Below, piece by piece: positions 4,450 through 21,650 of a DNA stretch of 34,564 bases. The DNA lies in assembly GCA_009787745.1 (NCBI GenBank), contig WQST01000003.1, forward strand, positions 1 through 34,564, written 5' to 3'. A program made the translations under genes and the position numbers. Under the pieces are notes generated by a model, which was given only the letters and a program-made list of their open reading frames with translations, made no database searches and was not told where the DNA came from. This DNA comes from Lachnospiraceae bacterium. GTDB taxonomy: Bacteria > Bacillota > Clostridia > Lachnospirales > Lachnospiraceae. Numbering within the stretch: the stretch's first letter is position 1; each line of letters begins with the position of its first letter.

Positions 4450-5700
4450 ATGAAATTATTTAGCAAGCTTAAACTTCAACATGAGAACGAGGTTGATTTT
4501 TCTGAATGGAGTAAAAAACTTATCCGAACGTATTGGTATGTTGCTCTAATTATAACTGTTGCGGCGGCTTTTCTTTTGATTGGGCTGATTCTGAATAATG
4601 AGTATGAAATTAAGTTTGAAGGTGTGAGCTATTTTCAGTATATACTTACATATCTGATTTATCCATTTCTTATGATTGCGGTATGTATTATATTATCATC
4701 AATTGGGATAAAGATATTCGGTGAAAAAAGATTATATACGATGCAGGCTTTTATCTGTTTGCTGTGTCTTACAATGATGTCGTCAATCGCAACGATTACA
4801 CATTATACGGTTAACGGAATTTATATGTCTTTTTCTTTTGTTTGCTTTATATCGTTGATTTATATTGACCGAAAGCTGGTTATTTTCGCCGCAATAATTA
4901 GCGGATTAACTTATCTTTTGATAGCGGTATTTTTCCTTATGGAAAAATCAGCAACGGGAGAAATTAAACATGGGGTAGAAGAGATTTTCACGACTCTTGC
5001 CTTAATTAGTACCGCGGCGGCGATTACGATGCATATCTTAAGCCGAAAGCAAATCCTAATATCTAATGTCGTTCAAATGAAAGACGGTATCTTATATACG
5101 ATGGCTGACCTTGTCGAAAATCGGGACAACAATACGGGCGGGCATGTTGAGCGGACGACAGTATATATGGAGTTGCTGACTAATGCAATTCAGGAAGCGG
5201 GGATATATGCTGATGATATGGATGATTGGGATTTGGATTCGGTTATTTCGTCGGCTCGTCTTCATGATGTCGGCAAAATAACTATTTCGGATGCTATTTT
5301 AAATAAGCCGGGACGGTTAACGGATGAAGAGTTTAATATTATGAAAACGCATACGACGGAAGGAGAACGAATTATTGAAAAAACCATTGAGCGGACAAGA
5401 AATGCTTTGTTCCTAAAGAATGCGAAAATAATTGCTGCATACCATCATGAGCGCTGGGATGGCAGTGGTTATCCATATGGTTTGAAAGATGTGGAAATTC
5501 CGCTGTTGGGGCGGTTGATGGCAATTGTTGATGTCTATGATGCACTGGTTTCAGAGCGTCCATACAAGAAAGCGTTTTCCCATGAAGAGGCAATGGATAT
5601 TATTAAAAAAGATGCGGGGAAACATTTTGATCCAATATTGGTAGGAGTTTTTCTGAGTATTGGCGCTCAAGTTGCGGCGGTTAGGGAAATTTATAAATAA
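4450..5700 (+). CDS. Membrane-anchored HD-GYP domain protein (putative c-di-GMP phosphodiesterase)
   Basis: N-terminal TM helices; HDVGK and HHERWDGSGYPYGL motifs; SD GGAGGGG. Confidence 0.88.
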   Translation: MKLFSKLKLQHENEVDFSEWSKKLIRTYWYVALIITVAAAFLLIGLILNNEYEIKFEGVSYFQYILTYLIYPFLMIAVCIILSSIGIKIFGEKRLYTMQAFICLLCLTMMSSIATITHYTVNGIYMSFSFVCFISLIYIDRKLVIFAAIISGLTYLLIAVFFLMEKSATGEIKHGVEEIFTTLALISTAAAITMHILSRKQILISNVVQMKDGILYTMADLVENRDNNTGGHVERTTVYMELLTNAIQEAGIYADDMDDWDLDSVISSARLHDVGKITISDAILNKPGRLTDEEFNIMKTHTTEGERIIEKTIERTRNALFLKNAKIIAAYHHERWDGSGYPYGLKDVEIPLLGRLMAIVDVYDALVSERPYKKAFSHEEAMDIIKKDAGKHFDPILVGVFLSIGAQVAAVREIYK

Positions 5701-5811
5701 GTGAAATGAAATTACCAACAAACTCCTATTGATTTAAGTATAAATATATCAGAAAATATACTAGTAATAAATCAAAAGTCTGTTCCTTACAGACAGAATG
5801 GAGTCTACATA

Positions 5812-6063
5812 ATGAAGATTTACAAGATCTATAGTTTGATGGGATTATGTTATGTTTATAGTATGAATCCTGTGGAAAATGAGTTAATGGAAGAAGTTTA
5901 TATTAAGTTGCCGGATGAATTTGCGGAAATCACCCGTAAGAATGGTATGCGGGGTATTGTTGGACCGGATGGTTTCATTGCAACAATGTTTTCAGGACCT
6001 GACCCAATGATTTTTAATCATCAATATGGCGGGGGAGAGAATCATACATTTCAAGTAGTTTAG
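5812..6063 (+). CDS. Small hypothetical protein (83 aa)
   Basis: Open frame followed by a terminator. Confidence 0.5.
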   Translation: MKIYKIYSLMGLCYVYSMNPVENELMEEVYIKLPDEFAEITRKNGMRGIVGPDGFIATMFSGPDPMIFNHQYGGGENHTFQVV

Positions 6064-6077
6064 TTTGAAAATTAATA

Positions 6078-6105
6078 TGAGTGCCGTCGCATGGCGGCAC
6101 TTTTT
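6078..6105 (+). terminator. Rho-independent terminator GTGCCGTCGCATGGCGGCACTTTTT
   Basis: GC-rich stem and T-tract. Confidence 0.8.
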
Positions 6106-6172
6106 GTTTGCAATTATTGGAATTTTATAGTATTTTAGTAATTGTTGGCTTATACTACTCAGAAAGATACAT

Positions 6173-6871
6173 ATGGAAAGATTCAGTCATTTTCGTTTCG
6201 CTTTTCGGCAAACGATTCCCATCATGTTAGGGTTTTTATTTCTTGGCACCGCTTTTGGCTTAATGCTATCCGATGCAGGGTATCATTTCTTGTGGGCTTT
6301 TTTAATCAGTATGGTCGTTTATGCGGGTAGTATGCAATTCGTAATGGTAACTTTATTTACTGCCGGAGCGGGGCTGCTTTATACGGCGATGATGACTTTA
6401 TTTATTAATGGGCGCCATATTTTTTATGGCTTGTCTTTGGTGGAAAAATTTAAAATAATGGGTAAGAGTTATCCGTATATGGTATTTTCTTTGACTGATG
6501 AAACATATTCGCTTTTGTGTCGGACGAAGGTTCCTGAGAAGCTCAGTGAAAAGAAAATTATGCTGTATATGAGTATGCTGAATCATAGTTATTGGGTGAT
6601 TGGATCGGTTTTTGGCGGTTTGGCAGGGCAGTTGATTAATTTTGATACAAATGGTATTGAATTTTCAATGACGGCACTCTTTATTGCGATTGTTATTGAG
6701 CAATGGCACGAGAAAGGTAATCGTTTATCAATTTTAGCCGGGGGAATTTCATCGGTGATTTTTTTGGTGCTTTTAGGTGCGGATCATTTTATAATGCCAT
6801 CATTATTTTTTACGGTTGGCTTCCGATTGCTTATGAAAAAATTTGATTTAAAAGGAGTAAAATTTGATTGA
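6173..6871 (+). CDS. azlC: AzlC family branched-chain amino acid export permease, large subunit
   Basis: FRQTIPIMLGFLFLGTAFGLMLSDAGYHFLWAFLISMVVYAGSMQFVMVTLF. Confidence 0.9.
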   Translation: MERFSHFRFAFRQTIPIMLGFLFLGTAFGLMLSDAGYHFLWAFLISMVVYAGSMQFVMVTLFTAGAGLLYTAMMTLFINGRHIFYGLSLVEKFKIMGKSYPYMVFSLTDETYSLLCRTKVPEKLSEKKIMLYMSMLNHSYWVIGSVFGGLAGQLINFDTNGIEFSMTALFIAIVIEQWHEKGNRLSILAGGISSVIFLVLLGADHFIMPSLFFTVGFRLLMKKFDLKGVKFD

Positions 6872-7208
6872 TATAACAAATACAATTGGAATAATTGCCG
6901 TAGTTACGTTATGTACGATTATTTTACGTGCCGCCCCTTTTATTGTCTTTGGCAGCAGAAAAACCGTGCCTGCGCAGATAGCTTATTTAGGGAAGGTGCT
7001 TCCGCCTGCGATTATGGTGACGCTGGTGTTTTATTGTTTGCGGAATATTGATTTTCTGAGTGTACATGGGTGGTTAGCGGAGATAATTGCATCGGTTTTG
7101 GTGGTAATCCTTCATTTATGGAAGAAGAATATATTATTGACTGTGGCAGTCAGTACGATTGCGTATATGTTGATGATACAGCTTAATGTTTTTGGATCTT
7201 TTATGTAA
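6864..7208 (+). CDS. azlD: AzlD family branched-chain amino acid transporter subunit
   Basis: Overlaps azlC end; RAAPFIVFGSRKTVPAQIAYLGKVLPPAIMVTLVFYCLRN. Confidence 0.88.
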   Translation: MIDITNTIGIIAVVTLCTIILRAAPFIVFGSRKTVPAQIAYLGKVLPPAIMVTLVFYCLRNIDFLSVHGWLAEIIASVLVVILHLWKKNILLTVAVSTIAYMLMIQLNVFGSFM

Positions 7209-7211
7209 AAA

Positions 7212-7250
7212 TATCAAGGAGACAGACAAATCTATCTCCTTGATAAAATT
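7212..7250. terminator. Hairpin TATCAAGGAGA/TCTCCTTGATA between convergent genes
   Basis: Perfect 11-bp stem. Confidence 0.7.
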
Positions 7251-7264
7251 TAAACTAATAATTA

Positions 7265-7840
7265 TTACAAACGATGCCCTTCGTGATTTACGCGATGACC
7301 TTCATTATTGATGCGATGCCCTTCGGCATTCAAGCGATGACCTTCATGATTTACACGATGTCCTTCATGGTTAATATAATGTCCTGCGGCATTCATTTTA
7401 TAGCCGGCGGCGATTGCTTTATCGTGTTCATGATGTTTTGGGGTATCTTTTTCAAGATATTTAACCGATAACCATGTTCCGGTATGCGCTAATGCCCATT
7501 TTCCGTCAGGGCTTAATTCTTTAATTTCTACTAAGGTATTTTTCTTAAGTGTACCAACTTTGTGATGTGAAACGCCGGGTCCGGTTCGCTCGTTAAGTTT
7601 TGCGGCGTTGACACGGTACATAACTTTTGTGTTTGCTTCCAATTCATGCATAATTGGGTGATTGACACCCTCGTGATATTTCTTTGTATGAGCAGTTGCA
7701 TGATTAGTGGTGTGGTGTGTACCTTCATGTTTAACTGCTTCATGGGAAGCAGCGCTTACCGGAACTGCTAAATTTACGAATAACATTGCACCTGCTAAGA
7801 AAGAAGTGCAAAATTTCGCACAATTACTTGATTTAATCAT
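7265..7840 (-). CDS. Secreted SH3-like domain protein with His-rich C-terminal heptapeptide repeats
   Basis: Signal peptide; SH3b-like VNAAKLNERTGPGVSHHKVGTLKKNTLVEI; six NxEGHRx-type repeats at C-terminus. Confidence 0.8.
   Translation of the reverse strand: MIKSSNCAKFCTSFLAGAMLFVNLAVPVSAASHEAVKHEGTHHTTNHATAHTKKYHEGVNHPIMHELEANTKVMYRVNAAKLNERTGPGVSHHKVGTLKKNTLVEIKELSPDGKWALAHTGTWLSVKYLEKDTPKHHEHDKAIAAGYKMNAAGHYINHEGHRVNHEGHRLNAEGHRINNEGHRVNHEGHRL
7268..7393 (-). repeat. 21-bp tandem repeat encoding six NxEGHRx heptapeptides
   Basis: MNAAGHYI-NHEGHRV-NHEGHRL-NAEGHRI-NNEGHRV-NHEGHRL. Confidence 0.9.
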
Positions 7841-7913
7841 TTTAGTCCTCCCTGAGTTTTAGTTAAATAAAAATATTCCTCATCAGTGATAAGAAATATT
7901 TTAATAATATTAT

Positions 7914-7960
7914 AATGTCAAATCTTGTTTTATTTATTCTCATAAACAAGATTTGACATT
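7914..7960. repeat. 17-bp perfect inverted repeat AATGTCAAATCTTGTTT/AAACAAGATTTGACATT, 13-nt loop
   Basis: Direct reading. Confidence 0.9.
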
Positions 7961-7986
7961 AATTAGAAAAAATGAAATTAAATGTT

Positions 7987-10422
7987 TTATCCCATAATAA
8001 CTTCTACACGATACACTTCTTTTCCGCTAACATAAGGAATCACAAATCCATCAATCTTTTGCCCGTCAATAATGATTTCGCGAACACCCTTTTCAACATT
8101 ATCGGGATTCGATACATTAATATGATATGTACCTTCGCGGAAACTGCGGGTAACGGTGAAATCGCCGAATCCTTTCGGAATACAAGGATTGACCGAAAGT
8201 CCTTTATGGGTCGGATAAATACCCAGAATATACTGAGAAATATTAACGAAAGTCCAAGCAGCAGTTCCGGTCAGCCAGCTATTTTTGGCTTCGCCGTGAT
8301 ACTTGGCGTCGCGTCCGGCGATCATTTGCGCATATACATAAGGCTCGGTTCGGTGGACTTCGCTGATTTCTTCATTATATGCCGGAGAAGTCTTACGATA
8401 AACGGAAAAAGCCCGCTCGCCGCGTCCGATAACAGTTTCGGCTATTGAAACCCACGGATTGTTATGGCAGAAAATCCCGGCATTTTCTTTGTATCCGGGC
8501 GGATATGAAGAAACTTCACCCAGTTCAAGATGGTATTTCGTATAGGCAGGCTGTAAAATCATGATGCCGTACTCGGTATCCAATTTTTCCTTAACGGAAT
8601 CAAGCGCTTTTTCAGCCAAACCTTCCGCCACGCCGACTCCTGCAAGTGAGCAAAAACCTTGTGATTCAATAAAAATCCGGCCTTCTTCACATTCTTTGGA
8701 GCCGATTTTTTGTCCATATGCATCGTATGCGCGAATGAACCACTCGCCATCCCAGCCGTCCTTTAAAATCGCGGCTTGCATAATCTTAACTTCATTGCGC
8801 GCACGCGCGGCTTCGGCTTCATCGCCTAATAACTCAGCCAACTCGGCATATTCTTCACCGTACTTAACAAACATACCGGCGATGAAAACCGATTCCGCAA
8901 CAGGACCTTGGCTTGGACCAAAAGTTTGAAATGATTCACCGGGATGTTCAGAGAAGCAGTTCAGATTAAGGCAGTCATTCCAATCAGCGCGGCCAATCAG
9001 CGGCAGGGCATGAGGTCCCTTATTATTAATGGTATAATCAAGTGAACGTTTTAGGTGATCCATCAAAGGGGTGGCAATCGATTCATCATTATCAAACGGA
9101 ACCATCTCATGAAGGATGGAAGTATCGCCTGTTTCGCGGACATACGCACTAGTTCCGGCGATTAGCCATAATGGGTCGTCATTAAAACCGCTGCCGATAT
9201 CAGAGTTGCCCTTTTTCGTCAAAGGCTGATATTGATGATAGGCACTGCCGTCAGGGAATTGTGTTGAGGCAATATCGATAATTCTCTCGCGCGCCCGTTC
9301 AGGAATCAAATGAACGAAACCGAGCAGATCCTGACAAGAGTCCCTGAATCCCATCCCCCGACCGATACCGGATTCATAATAAGAAGCGCTCCTTGACATA
9401 TTGAAAGTCACCATGCATTGATATTGGTTCCAAATATTAACCATCCGATCAACTTTTTCATCGTTTGATTTGACATTATATTTACCTAACAAACTTTGCC
9501 AGTAGTTGTTTAAGTCGGTGAAAGCGCTATCGATATCAGCATCGGTTTGATATTTCTTAAGCATCGCGTATGCTTTATCTTTATTAATGATACCGTCAGC
9601 TTCCCATTTATTTTCTTTTTCGTTTTCGATATAACCCAGAACGAAGATGTAGGAACTTGTCTCACCCGGTGCAATCGTCAAATTAATCTGATGAGAAGCA
9701 ATAGGCGACCATCCGCTGGCTAGGTTATTCTTAAGCTGACCTTCTTCGACGGCGTGAGGGCATTCAGGACCGCGGTAAGCACCTAAGAACTCGTCGCGGA
9801 TAGTTTCAAAGCCATCAATCGGAGCATTCACAGCATAGACTGCATAGTGGTTGCGGCGTTCACGGTATTCAGTTTTGTGGAAAATTGCGGATTCGATGAC
9901 TTCGACTTCGCCGATGCTTAGATTGCGTTGGAAATTTTTCATATCATCATCAGCATTCCAGAGGCACCATTCAACGTAAGAGAAAAGGGAAATCGTTTTG
10001 GCACAAGCGGAGTTGTTGGTTATTTTTAGTTGGGTGACTTCACAGGTATCGTTCATGGGAACGAAGGTAAGAACCTCGGCTTTGATGTCATTTTTTTGCC
10101 CGCTGAAACGGCTGTAACCGATTCCGTGGCGGCATTCATAGCTGTCTAACGCTGTTTTCGTCGGTTGCCAGCCGGGGTTCCAGACCGTATCGCCGTCTTT
10201 TATGTAAATATATTTGCCGTTATTGTCGGCGGGGACATTATTGTACCTGTAGCGGGTCAAACGTAAAAGTTTGGCGTCCTTATAGAAGGTATAACCTCCG
10301 CAGGTGTTGGAAATCAAGCTGAAAAAATCATTACAGCCTAAGTAATTAATCCAGGGAAGTGGCGTTTGGGGCGTCGTTATGACATATTCACGGTTTGCGT
10401 CGTCAAAATATCCAAATTTCAT
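7987..10422 (-). CDS. Cellobiose phosphorylase, GH94 (811 aa)
   Basis: [62 protein letters not shown] and [13 protein letters not shown], characteristic of GH94 phosphorylases. Confidence 0.93.
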
Positions 10423-10498: not shown

Positions 10499-10593
10499 AA
10501 TCATGATATAATGACGTTAGTCATTATATCGGCGCGGCTTTAGTGCGCATCCCCCAGAGGGCATGATTTCTGAAGGAATCATGATATAATGTT
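10499..10593 (+). repeat. Palindromic interspersed repeat, copy A
   Basis: Contains GATATAATGAC-GTTA-GTCATTATATC and shares aligned sequence with 21481-21650. Confidence 0.85.
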
Positions 10594-10621: not shown

Positions 10622-11203
10622 ATGAGCGAAATATTCAGATGCTTTGGAAACACCGAATTGTATGCAGATTACCACGATAACGAATGGGGCAGACCTGTTC
10701 ATGATGATAATAAGCTTTTCGAAATGCTGATCTTGGAGGGAGCGCAGGCAGGGCTTTCTTGGGAAACGGTACTAAAAAAGCGGGAAGCATACCGTGAAGC
10801 CTTCGATGGGTTCGACCCTAAGAAAGTCGCCTTATACGACGATGCTAAGAGAGCGGAACTACTGGCGAACCCGGGTATTATTCGTAACCGCCTAAAAATT
10901 AACGCCGCGATTATAAATGCCGAATTGTTTCTTGAAATCGTCAAAAAATACGGGAGTTTTGACAGTTTCATATGGGCTTATGTGAATAACGAGCCGATTG
11001 TCGGGCATTGGGAAAGCTTTGATTACATGCCGATTACGACCGAAATATCCGATAAAATAAGTAAAGATCTCAAAAAAATGGGTTTTAAATTCGTAGGTTC
11101 AACGATTATTTATTCATTTATGCAAGCCGTCGGGATGGTAAATGACCATCTAAAACCATGTTTTGTGTATCAACAAATAATAACGGAGGAGTCGGATTCA
11201 TGA
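10622..11203 (+). CDS. tag: DNA-3-methyladenine glycosylase I
   Basis: RCFGNTELYADYHDNEWGRPVHDDNKLFEMLILEGAQAGLSWETVLKKREAYR; SD GGGAGG. Confidence 0.95.
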   Translation: MSEIFRCFGNTELYADYHDNEWGRPVHDDNKLFEMLILEGAQAGLSWETVLKKREAYREAFDGFDPKKVALYDDAKRAELLANPGIIRNRLKINAAIINAELFLEIVKKYGSFDSFIWAYVNNEPIVGHWESFDYMPITTEISDKISKDLKKMGFKFVGSTIIYSFMQAVGMVNDHLKPCFVYQQIITEESDS

Positions 11204-12210
11204 CATCTATGAAAGATATCGCCGCCGCTTGCGGAGTTTCAATAGCAACAGTGAGCAAAGCTCTAAACGGGCATCACGATATCGGCGAGAAAACACGCGC
11301 CAGGATTAGGAAAGCCGCCGAAGAAATGGGTTACTCGCCTAATTCCTTTGCCAGCGCCCTAAAAACCAGAAAAAGCTATAATGTCGGTGTCCTTTTCGTT
11401 GATGAAGATGGTTCGGGGCTTACCCACGATCATTTTTCGCGGATTCTTGATAGTGTTAAAGTTTCTGTTGAATCAAATGGCTACGACTTGACATTTCTCA
11501 ACTGTAATAAGAATCGTGAAAAACGGCGTTCATATTTAAACCATACCCGCTATCGCGGTTTGGAAGGGATAATCATTGCTTGTATCGACTTTTCCGACCC
11601 CGAAGTAGCGGAGTTGATTGAAAGTGAAATTCCCGTAGTTACGATTGATTGCCTTTTCGATAATACGATGTGCGTCATGACCAATCAAGCTAAGGGTATG
11701 CGCGATCTGATGAATTATATCTATGAAATGGGGCATCGCCGTATTGCATATATTCATGGTACTGATTCGGCGGTCACACAGAGCCGCCTTAATGGATTTT
11801 ACCAAACAATCGAAGAACTTAAGCTTACGGTACCGAAAGAATATATCCGTGAAGTCGCCTATCGTGATAAGGGTGAGACTGAGCGCCTGACCAAAGAGCT
11901 ATTAAATCTCGAAACCCCTCCTACTTGTATTCTTTATCCCGATGATTATGCATCGTTTGGCGGAATAAAGGCGATTAAAGAAATGGGTTTAAAAATTCCT
12001 GAAGATATTTCGATTGCAGGTTATGATGGTATTGTGATTAGCCGTTTAATGGAACCGCAGCTGACAACGATCGATCAGGATGCGGAAAAAATAGGGCGCT
12101 GTGCAGGTGATGCGCTGATAAAGATTATCGAAAACCCGAAAACGACGATAATTGAAACAATTCGGGTTGACGGAAATTTAGTTATCGGTAATTCAGTTGG
12201 GAAAATCTAA
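11200..12210 (+). CDS. LacI family transcriptional regulator
   Basis: MTSMKDIAAACGVSIATVSKALNGHHDIGEKTRARIRKAAEEMGYSPN; ATGA overlap with tag. Confidence 0.95.
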   Translation: MTSMKDIAAACGVSIATVSKALNGHHDIGEKTRARIRKAAEEMGYSPNSFASALKTRKSYNVGVLFVDEDGSGLTHDHFSRILDSVKVSVESNGYDLTFLNCNKNREKRRSYLNHTRYRGLEGIIIACIDFSDPEVAELIESEIPVVTIDCLFDNTMCVMTNQAKGMRDLMNYIYEMGHRRIAYIHGTDSAVTQSRLNGFYQTIEELKLTVPKEYIREVAYRDKGETERLTKELLNLETPPTCILYPDDYASFGGIKAIKEMGLKIPEDISIAGYDGIVISRLMEPQLTTIDQDAEKIGRCAGDALIKIIENPKTTIIETIRVDGNLVIGNSVGKI

Positions 12211-17110: not shown

Positions 17111-17183
17111 GGGCGTGTAGCTCAGTTGGTAGAGCACTTGACTTTTAATCAAGTTGTCCGGAGTTCGAGCCTCCGCACGCTCA
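17111..17183 (+). tRNA. tRNA-Lys (TTT)
   Basis: GGGCGTG/CACGCTC acceptor; anticodon loop CTTTTAA. Confidence 0.95.
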
Positions 17184-17254
17184 GTAATTATTAAAATTTT
17201 CACCTTAAACTTGGACAAGCTGTTATAATTTCAACAGTTTGTCCAAGTTTATTT
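17147..17254 (+). repeat. Duplication copy 1a: tRNA-Lys 3' half plus terminator
   Basis: Aligns without gaps to 19653-19760. Confidence 0.92.
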
Positions 17255-17256
17255 TT
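17207..17256 (+). terminator. tRNA operon terminator AAACTTGGACAA...TTGTCCAAGTTT
   Basis: Long stem followed by ATTTTT. Confidence 0.85.
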
Positions 17257-17467
17257 AGCTAATTGGCAAATCTATATGCGTTGATTATTAAGAATATTTA
17301 AACCTTTTTCAAATAATCACCGCACCTAATATTCTATACTATCAATTAAGCGGTGAAGATTTTGCCGAATGTTTTTTCTCAGCAAAAAACTATCCGATCT
17401 TGACACGCTCAAAATCGCCAAAATAATGGGCTTTAGGTTCGGTGAAACGCTTTTATTAAACGAACTC

Positions 17468-17687
17468 TAATTAATTCAAAATTGACTTTTTGTTGATAAA
17501 TGGGTATAATGCCTTTAAGGGGAGTTGATTGAAATGGAAAATACCGTGAAGCCTTTACCATTAACAAAAGTAGAAATTGAAAAAGAGCGCGTTGCGTTGC
17601 ATGAATCTCTTTTGCCTTTAAGTGACTCCATGAAATCAAAACCATACAAAGAGGTTTTTGCAGAGATAAAAGAGAATGCAAACCTTT
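17468..17687 (+). repeat. Duplication copy 1b: promoter and small ORF
   Basis: Aligns to 19761-19978 with substitutions and two 1-nt indels. Confidence 0.92.
17482..17510 (+). promoter_or_regulatory. Promoter TTGACT-17-TATAAT for the 55-aa ORF
   Basis: Hexamers and 17-nt spacing read directly. Confidence 0.65.
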
Positions 17688-17701
17688 GTGTTTCGTTGTG
17701 A
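17534..17701 (+). CDS. 55-aa hypothetical protein
   Basis: MENTVKPLPLTKVEIEKERVALHESLLPLSDSMKSKPYKEVFAEIKENANLCVSL*; own promoter and SD; frameshifted copy at 19827. Confidence 0.5.
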   Translation: MENTVKPLPLTKVEIEKERVALHESLLPLSDSMKSKPYKEVFAEIKENANLCVSL

Positions 17702-17756
17702 AAGAAGCAATTCATGTTATTTTCTTCATTTCCGGGTTAAATTATTTTTAAATTGT

Positions 17757-17817
17757 TATAAAACACGCGAAATTTTGGATGGCTGAAGCACAGTTTAAAT
17801 TTCTTGCGTGTTTTATA
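17757..17817. repeat. Inverted repeat TATAAAACACGCGAAATTT / AAATTTCTTGCGTGTTTTATA
   Basis: About 19-bp arms with a 2-nt bulge, directly upstream of the GTPase. Confidence 0.85.
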
Positions 17818-17902
17818 TAAAAACGTTATAATCGAACATGAGAAAAGATTTGCGCGAAATTACATAGCTTAGATAATACTCATAAACTTAGAGGGAAAAT
17901 AC

Positions 17903-19063
17903 ATGGAAAGAGGAAATGTTTTAGTTATTGGTAATTCAGGTGTGGGTAAATCTACTTTGATCAACACCGTCCTCGGAGAAGATAAAGCGGAAACAGGTTG
18001 GGGTACAGAAGGTAGAACAGATAGATTAAATATATATGAAAGTAGTAAAATACCTTTTCGGATAATAGACACAGTTGGTTTTGAACCATCATTAATAAAA
18101 GAATATAAGGCTATTAGTGCTGTTAAAAAATGGTCGAAAAACAGCGCAAATGAAGGACATAATGATAATCAAATTAATGTTATTTGGTTTTGTGTAGATG
18201 GATGTTCTGCAAAGTTATTTCCGAATGTGATAAAAAATCTTTCAAAAGCAACATCTATGTGGAAAACAGTTCCAATAATTGTTGTTATAACTAAATCATA
18301 TGCTGTTCCCGATCGAGAAAAAAATATTGAAATGGTTAACAACGCATTTGCAAAGCAGAAACGTTCAAGCAATTTACGCAAAGTTATTCCCGTTATTGCG
18401 TCTATATTTGTATTAAATGATAGTGCTTATGCAGCACCGGAAGGGATTACTGAACTTATAGACGTTACAAATGAATTAATGCCGGAAGGGGTAAAAGCAG
18501 GTGAGGCAGACATTGCCGCTTTCAAATTGAAACGAAAAAGATTTATGGCACATGGAGTAATCGGGGGTTCAACTACAGCGGCAGTAGTAGTAGGAGCTGT
18601 TCCAGTGCCGTTTCCTGATGCATTGATACTCTCACCAATAGAAGTAGCCGAGGTTAACGCTCTTGCTCAAATATATGAAATTAATAAAAATGAAGGCTCA
18701 AAGCAATTGCTTAATACTATTGTTGAAGTTGGAACTGTAAGTATTGTGGCAAAACAAGCAATAAATGCATTAAAGGCAATTCCGGGAGTTAATTTGGGTG
18801 CAAGCGTTTTAAACGCAATAATTGCCGGAAGTATTGTAGCGGCTCTTGGTGAAGGAACAATATATATTTTTGAACAAGTATATTTGGGCAAAAAAAGTGT
18901 TTCAGATATTGACTGGGTAAAAAAGATATTGGAGTCAAAATTGACTTCACAATTAACAGACATTGTAAAAACTATTATAGAGAAGGTCAATCAGAATACT
19001 GATAGTAAAGCTGTTGCAAGCATTATATCAGATGTGTTCAAGGATTATTTTAGTAATAATTAA
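17903..19063 (+). CDS. P-loop GTPase with C-terminal hydrophobic domain (DUF697-like)
   Basis: G1 GNSGVGKS, G3 DTVGF, G4-like VITKSY; hydrophobic GGSTTAAVVVGAVPVPFPDALILSPIEVAEVNALAQIY. Confidence 0.85.
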   Translation: MERGNVLVIGNSGVGKSTLINTVLGEDKAETGWGTEGRTDRLNIYESSKIPFRIIDTVGFEPSLIKEYKAISAVKKWSKNSANEGHNDNQINVIWFCVDGCSAKLFPNVIKNLSKATSMWKTVPIIVVITKSYAVPDREKNIEMVNNAFAKQKRSSNLRKVIPVIASIFVLNDSAYAAPEGITELIDVTNELMPEGVKAGEADIAAFKLKRKRFMAHGVIGGSTTAAVVVGAVPVPFPDALILSPIEVAEVNALAQIYEINKNEGSKQLLNTIVEVGTVSIVAKQAINALKAIPGVNLGASVLNAIIAGSIVAALGEGTIYIFEQVYLGKKSVSDIDWVKKILESKLTSQLTDIVKTIIEKVNQNTDSKAVASIISDVFKDYFSNN

Positions 19064-19128
19064 GATATTTCTACTGGTGAGGAATTTTTATAAATCTTTA
19101 CGAAAATATCTCATCTTTCTTTGCATAG

Positions 19129-19174
19129 AAAAATCCCGAGAGTATTGGTTTATCACTAAAATCTCGGGATTTTT
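19129..19174 (+). terminator. Terminator AAAAATCCCGAGA...TCTCGGGATTTTT
   Basis: 13-bp perfect stem after the GTPase. Confidence 0.85.
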
Positions 19175-19250
19175 ATGTTGATTGATATCTGGTCGCGCCT
19201 GAACGGTAACTATATATCAGACGTTTAAATGAAAAGTTTTCGCGTTATTT

Positions 19251-19279
19251 TTGACAAAAGACACTATATATGATACTAT
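19251..19279 (+). promoter_or_regulatory. Promoter TTGACA-17-TACTAT
   Basis: Consensus-like hexamers; ACACTATAT direct repeats at 19261 and 19292. Confidence 0.65.
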
Positions 19280-19321
19280 TTAGTACAGAGAACACTATAT
19301 GAACGAATAGGTAGAGATGAT

Positions 19322-19495
19322 ATGAGCGAAAAAGAAATTCGTGAATTAAAAGAATCAATGGAACAAGAACTTGCCCGTCCAATAACACCCCAGGAAGCAA
19401 AAAGGAATTTGGTTGCTGTTGGTGTGTATACTCGGAATGGTAAACTCACCAAAAGAGGAAAAAGCACATTTCAATATTTTTCGCAGAGGTCATAA
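19322..19495 (+). CDS. 57-aa hypothetical protein
   Basis: MSEKEIRELKESMEQELARPITPQEAKRNLVAVGVYTRNGKLTKRGKSTFQYFSQRS*; own promoter. Confidence 0.6.
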   Translation: MSEKEIRELKESMEQELARPITPQEAKRNLVAVGVYTRNGKLTKRGKSTFQYFSQRS

Positions 19496-19652
19496 TTCTT
19501 GTATAATAAACTTCCCAATTTGATAATCGCCTTTCATGGATGCGATCAAACTACTTTACCACTTCAGGAATTAGATGAGCCTTTTATAGTATAAATAGGC
19601 AATAAAATATGGTTACTATTTGGTTACTGCTCAACCAAAAAGTTAATAAAAA

Positions 19653-19978
19653 AATCAAGTTGTCTGGAGTTCGAGCCTCCGCACGCTCAGTAATTATTAA
19701 AATTTTCACCTTAAACTTGGACAAGCTGTTATAATTTCAACAGTTTGTCTAAGTTTATTTTAATTAATTCAAATTTAACTTTTTGCTGATAAATGGGTAT
19801 AATGTCTTTAAAGGGAGTTGATTGAAATGGAAATACCGTGAAGCCTTTATCACTAACAAAAATAGAAGTTGAAAAGAGCGCGTTGCGTTGCATGAATCTC
19901 TTTTGCCTTTAAGCGACCCCATGAAATCAAAACCATACAAAGAAGTTTTTGCGGAGGTAAAAGAGAATGTAAACCTTT
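19653..19978 (+). repeat. Duplication copy 2: tRNA-Lys 3' fragment, terminator and decayed small ORF
   Basis: Matches 17147-17254 plus 17468-17687. Confidence 0.92.
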
Positions 19979-19980
19979 AG
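19827..19980 (+). pseudogene. Frameshifted copy of the 55-aa ORF
   Basis: Single-base deletion gives ATG GAA ATA CCG TGA; second 1-nt deletion downstream. Confidence 0.7.
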
Positions 19981-20246
19981 CGTTAATATGTCTGATATGT
20001 CAAAAAGTGATTTAGTCGAAATAAAGATTTACTTTTGCTTTTTAGCCGCTAAATTTCGGTAGCCGCTAAATTTCCGCTAAATTTCAAAAAAACTCCTTGC
20101 TATTCTACTCAAAGTATGCTACCATAAAATTCCGTGATATACAAGCATCTTAGAAAGTATCTATATCAAAAGTAGAATAAACTTCATCTAAATGCCATTC
20201 CTTGCTCCTTTTTATGGGGGCCAGAGACCAAAAGGAGGTAACCAGC

Positions 20247-21480: not shown

Positions 21481-21650
21481 AATCATGATATAATGACGTT
21501 AGTCATTATATCTGCGCATCTTTAGTGCGCATCTCCCAGAGGGCATAATTTGCGTAGCAAATCATGAATAATGACGTTAGTCATTATATCTGCGCGTCTT
21601 TTAGTACGCATCCATAACCGCCTGACGGCGGCGGGAGGGCTATAATGTTG
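21481..21650 (+). repeat. Palindromic interspersed repeat, copy B (21481-21559) and partial tandem copy C (21560-21650)
   Basis: Same core as copy A; second unit restarts at ATCATGAATAATGACGTTAGTCATTATATC. Confidence 0.85.

Follow-up and report, generated by a model that had tools for sequence, protein, structure and literature searches.

The tRNA-Lys(TTT) gene and its displaced 3' half

The window, which here denotes the whole stretch of 34,564 nucleotides analysed from a contig of a Lachnospiraceae bacterium, contains a conserved Pro-Gly-Arg-His-Gln-Lys cluster of tRNA genes with tRNA-Lys(TTT) as its final gene. ARAGORN places this gene intact on the forward strand at 17111-17183, with the anticodon at 17144-17146 (Rfam RF00005, 71.3 bits). 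From the first base 3' of the anticodon onwards, the sequence recurs downstream on the same strand with a start-to-start offset of 2,506 bp: positions 17147-17255 and 19653-19761 form a direct repeat of 109 bp with two differences (98% identity). Copy 1, on the side of the intact gene (attL), comprises 37 nt of tRNA-Lys and a further 72 bp including the intrinsic terminator of the tRNA operon, a 19-pair stem followed by a T run (17206-17251, forward strand). Copy 2 (attR) is a displaced 3' half of tRNA-Lys together with the terminator. An earlier note on this DNA had recognized that the repeat begins inside the tRNA, though its start lies in the anticodon loop and not, as was then stated, in the anticodon stem.

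A second repeated block of about 220 bp (block S) occurs at 17468-17687 and 19761-19978, both on the forward strand, with 92% identity, 15 substitutions and two single-A deletions. Its first copy carries a promoter-like site (TTGACT-17-TATAAT), a Shine-Dalgarno sequence and the start of a small open reading frame (ORF). In copy 1, the att repeat and block S are separated by 212 bp (17256-17467) that are missing from copy 2 in the alignment, where the att repeat passes into block S without a gap. The duplication up to 19978 was correctly noted before, but it is not continuous.

No third copy of the repeat exists in the assembly, and among the 14 tRNAs in 1.06 Mb of the genome, which was surveyed by stretches, a copy of the 3' half within 12 kb is confined to the two tRNA-Lys genes. 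Both copies lie downstream on the same strand and none was found on the opposite strand. The repeat at tRNA-Lys is therefore real and far beyond chance; nor is the block dispersed, an outcome that would have spoken for an origin unrelated to this tRNA. Among 397 genomes of the family, a tRNA-Lys 3' half with another preceding base was found in the window only, using a pattern that misses copies starting further upstream. Transitions account for 16 of the 17 substitutions between the repeat copies, a pattern more in keeping with drift following the duplication than with an error of assembly. The lower divergence of the att repeat was also considered as a sign that it is younger or older than block S, and this was rejected as the difference is not significant (p = 0.065).

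Gene content of the interval

The interval contains a small ORF of 55 aa counted from its ATG (17535-17701, forward strand), a GTPase of 386 aa with MMR_HSR1 and DUF697 domains according to Pfam (17903-19063, forward strand) and an ORF of 57 aa behind a promoter-like site, TTGACA-17-TACTAT (19322-19495, forward strand). The small ORF is open in copy 1 only and broken by two frameshifts in copy 2; the segment described earlier as a downstream small-ORF duplication is therefore duplicated as DNA, but not as an open frame. The G+C content of the variable segment is 30-35% compared to 40% in the flanks, and a search of the interval DNA against phages and plasmids gave no match. As previously noted, none of the ORFs between the att copies encodes a recombinase, and all five PF00589 matches of the assembly are located on other contigs.

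The GTPase is the sole identifiable cargo of the interval. Its closest relative (60% identity) is encoded on a contig that carries no tRNA (L079). The structural model has a pLDDT of 76, and its fold matches at E <= 1.4e-4 include IniA, Irga6 (IRG) and LeoA at TM values of just 0.28-0.34, while an EngB-type G domain superposes better. The whole-length likeness of the model to IRG or dynamin-like folds is weak. Assignment as a known defence gene was considered and rejected, since PADLOC returned only weak matches. In PHROGs, the two small ORFs had no match and the GTPase matched, beyond its P-loop, only families of unknown function; no significant relative of either small ORF turned up in any of the libraries or collections consulted.

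A doubled motif shared with prophage ends

Just upstream of att copy 2, the earlier note had pointed out a doubled GGTTAC motif, GGTTACTATTTGGTTAC (19611-19627), as compatible with integrase arm sites. In its 19-bp form, TGGTTACTATTTGGTTACT (19610-19628, forward strand), the motif has a period of 11 bp. By itself, the doubled GGTTAC was discarded as evidence, as 16 doubled 6-mers at similar spacing are present in the 3-kb region; it gains weight because the same 19-mer recurs at phage att ends. Three exact matches were found in IMG/VR. In one (L091), the 19-mer stands between the stop codon of a tyrosine integrase of 404 aa, which it directly follows, and a tRNA-Thr 3' half; in another (L092), it lies ahead of a tRNA-Thr 3' half at the end of a phage-like contig, and in the third (L090) it occurs with neither an integrase nor a tRNA 3' half. 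Within the 397 family genomes, the 19-mer is present once in the window, twice in genome G133 and nowhere else, and the reversed pattern gave no match.

The two sites in G133 belong to a single complete-looking prophage at tRNA-Thr(GGT) and mark its opposite ends. Its attL (contig C14, L103) shows the order tRNA, motif and tyrosine integrase; at its attR (contig C8, L102), genes of tail and lysis type come first, followed by the motif and the tRNA 3' half. The 119-bp att repeat of this prophage has 100% identity between its copies; it takes in the terminator and ends 75 bp beyond the tRNA. Consequently, the overrun of 72 bp in the window is usual for integrases of this group. The earlier suggestion of repeated integration or segmental duplication, made from the homology past the terminator, applies to block S but not to the terminator part. 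As the same anatomy is found at independent prophage ends (G133, L091 and L092), both the att-site reading of the repeat and the arm-type reading of the motif made in the earlier note are borne out. The arm-type role is inferred from position, and the motif could alternatively represent an excisionase site; excisionase sites can likewise take the form of direct repeats spaced by one helix turn (PMC7498355). In annotated phage records the doubled motif matched at chance level only, and a relaxed form yielded four further IMG/VR contigs with one shared coding sequence and no detected integrase. The exact att sequence of the window, by which the earlier note had proposed to look for integrase-encoding elements, was not found in IMG/VR.

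Spacing between motif and core

Taking as end points the end of the doubled motif and roughly the base that follows the anticodon, the distance to the tRNA core is 122 bp in G133 and L091, 121 bp in L092 and on contig C18 of the same genome as the window, and 120 bp on its contig C10. This suggests a testable rule, in which an arm-like repeat lies 120-122 bp ahead of the tRNA core at five att sites with differing motifs and tRNAs. On C10, the motif is TATTTGACTACTATTTGACTACTA and the core a tRNA-Pro-like 3' half. The window departs from the spacing of the integrase subfamily of C10 and G133, as its motif is present but lies only 24 bp from the core, and about 97 bp would appear to have been lost in between. 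Furthermore, a tandem-repeat scan detected no left arm motif on the attL side, which includes the 212-bp segment specific to copy 1.

The C10 integrase (L086, 4439-5656) is the only member of the G133 subfamily found in the assembly. It shares 40-41% identity with the G133 integrase in a match that stops at the catalytic tyrosine; the ORF itself ends a few residues past this tyrosine and adjoins serine recombinase genes. Further along the same contig (L126, 1503-1647), an arm repeat is located 120 bp before the tRNA-Pro-like 3' half.

Parallel scars at tRNA-Lys(CTT)

The other tRNA-Lys gene of this genome with a repeated 3' half is tRNA-Lys(CTT) on contig C18 (L089, 4100-5874), where the repeat lies 1,701 bp downstream and an 11-bp-period repeat, TTTGACTACC, precedes the second 3'-half copy. 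The interval encodes a Cro/C1-type regulator and also contains a disrupted Gp157-like ORF, but no integrase. In a congener (G003, contig C6; L108, minus strand, 5328-8213), the 3' half of tRNA-Lys(CTT) is found again about 2.8 kb downstream. Here, the interval contains a restriction-modification (R-M) pair, formed by a MutH-domain (Sau3AI-like) endonuclease of 454 aa and a C5 methylase of 416 aa, again without an integrase, and a spaced 7-mer scan revealed no convincing arm repeat. These cases show that tRNA-Lys genes have been used repeatedly, which does not imply mobilization in trans. A role of the tRNA-Lys genes of the genus as docking places for small cargo cassettes without an integrase, such as the GTPase here and the R-M pair in G003, which trans-acting integrases would swap between strains, appears improbable.

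The locus in relatives

The arrangement was found in none of 60 relatives, so that it is not the common feature of the group that would have told against an integrated island. Five congeners have kept the tRNA cluster that closes with tRNA-Lys, with four tRNAs in the stretch of G004 and all six in the rest. Synteny with these congeners breaks directly after tRNA-Lys, and the downstream content varies by relative. The rpsF block that follows in the window lies elsewhere in those relatives in which it was located and never adjoins tRNA-Lys. Since the two blocks are not adjacent in relatives, none of these offers an empty tRNA-Lys/rpsF site for the comparison that the earlier note had proposed. 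Homologues of the genes upstream of rpsF in G005 are present in the genome of the window on other contigs. The tRNA cluster is joined to the rpsF block (17183-20117) in none of the 60 relatives. A dispersed repeat of about 90 bp, shared with congeners, occurs in the window at 10503-10592 and 21485-21601 and also at 4621-4713 (L036), 5132-5265 (L042) and 11177-11276 (L081), and a palindromic ATAATGACGTTAGTCATTAT forms part of it at window positions 21487-21590.

Origin of the interval

The segment 17147-19652 is very probably what remains of an element that a tyrosine integrase placed in the anticodon loop of tRNA-Lys(TTT). This reading is supported by the start of the repeat at the base after the anticodon, by complete prophages that carry the 19-mer and a matching anatomy at their ends, including the 119-bp att repeat of G133, and by the lower G+C content of the segment and the lack of the arrangement in 60 relatives. 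According to this model, a tyrosine integrase would have inserted a phage-like element at the anticodon loop, and the element would have supplied its own tRNA 3' half and terminator, thereby leaving the tRNA whole at attL, while the original 3' half would have been pushed downstream to form attR at 19653. The integrase end and the left arm would have been deleted later, leaving the GTPase as cargo. Several observations stand against this reading. Neither a phage gene nor a recombinase has survived in the interval, the left arm is missing, no empty site serves for comparison, block S is not explained by one integration and the motif could be bound by an excisionase instead of an integrase.

Indeed, block S is beyond what one clean integration explains. 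It may have arisen from a second, truncated tandem integration of an element with a similar left end, of which 19653 to about 20100 would be the remnant. Alternatively, copy 2 may be the original flank of tRNA-Lys and copy 1 may have been captured by the element. The tandem and the flank-capture readings stand at about even odds, with flank capture perhaps somewhat behind. It is favoured by the direct contact of block S copy 2 with att copy 2 and by the extended att homology that is also seen in G133, whereas block S is absent from all 60 relatives. A second element would predict a second arm-like repeat. At 20046-20085 (forward strand), CCGCTAAATTTC occurs three times, with an 11-bp offset between two of the units, as putative arm sites; the surveyed 1.06 Mb of the genome contain 9 long runs of this kind, this one included. 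It sits just ahead of the conserved rpsF flank and is missing from the rpsF loci of congeners (L041-L043). The CCGCTAAATTTC repeat would fit a second element, but it is not followed by a tRNA core.

The relic reading has to be weighed against a live cis-mobilizable island, whose attL and attR would still work and from which an integrase acting in trans, or supplied by an incoming element, would excise a circle of 2.5 kb. In its favour, the att repeats share 98% identity, one of the motif pairs has stayed intact and there is precedent in cis-mobilizable elements (CIMEs; PMC5704250) and in ssrA islands without an integration module (PMC3146451). However, the distance of 24 bp between motif and core in place of 120-122 bp, the missing left arm and the early end of the C10 integrase next to serine recombinase genes make such an island unlikely. 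Of the two states suggested in the earlier note, decayed or trans-mobilized, the former therefore appears much more likely, since the integrase and left arm are lacking and the spacing has collapsed.

If illegitimate or RecA-type recombination had simply duplicated the tail of tRNA-Lys together with its flank, with no integrase involved, this would account for the continuation of homology through block S, for which the att core alone is insufficient. Yet such a segmental duplication leaves unexplained why the repeat starts in the anticodon loop, why an att-associated motif lies beside copy 2, why tRNA-Lys(CTT) shows the same anatomy both here and in G003 and why 12 other tRNAs were seen without such copies, and it is judged very unlikely. 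Least credible is a binning or assembly chimera joining tRNA-Lys to rpsF. The source assembly is a draft (310 contigs, 82.88% complete), the junction occurs in no relative and repeats can produce false joins. Against a chimera stand the 17 substitutions, the two single-base deletions and the 212-bp indel that set the copies apart, and the position of the whole interval well within the 34.5-kb contig.

Relation to known systems

The locus is of a known kind, a tRNA-bounded remnant or CIME-like island. It is an ordinary relic, yet unusually readable, as both junctions are legible and one is damaged; what had been a tentative att scar can now be read base by base. tRNA fragments left by element integration are common (PMC9897764). 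The Islander study describes tRNA islands as a tRNA with a displaced fragment, comprises 2,083 anticodon-centred sites and rejects integrase-less candidates (PMC4383910). Like its islands of the anticodon-loop subsite, the window shows an intact tRNA and a displaced 3' fragment downstream on the same strand, with the crossover at the anticodon loop. Its 2,506 bp between repeat starts exceed the required length of at least 2 kb, but no PF00589 match is present on the contig, while a tyrosine integrase is demanded. As this filter drops such cases, small cargo at tRNA genes may be undercounted.

The closest counterpart in anatomy, the tRNA-Thr(GGT) prophage of G133, has the same 19-mer and likewise includes the tRNA 3' half and terminator in its att repeat (119 bp versus 109 bp in the window). 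In contrast to the window, it keeps its integrase, phage genes, motifs at both ends and a spacing of 122 bp instead of 24 bp. CIMEs have lost their integration and transfer genes while attL and attR are kept (PMC5704250), and in Dehalococcoides 15 ssrA islands lack an integration module (PMC3146451). The relic resembles CIMEs in its lack of integration and transfer genes, in its att copies on both sides and in its hints of a tandem; it keeps the repeats, but with the left arm missing and the spacing collapsed, attR looks damaged. In Oenococcus oeni, tRNA genes harbour prophage remnants with degenerate attR sites and tandems, some of which carry R-M or superinfection-exclusion (Sie) cargo (PMC8074189). 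The relic is similar to these as a reduced element at a tRNA site, although the O. oeni remnants span 5.2-19.5 kb with recognizable phage genes, compared to 2.5 kb and none of these genes here.
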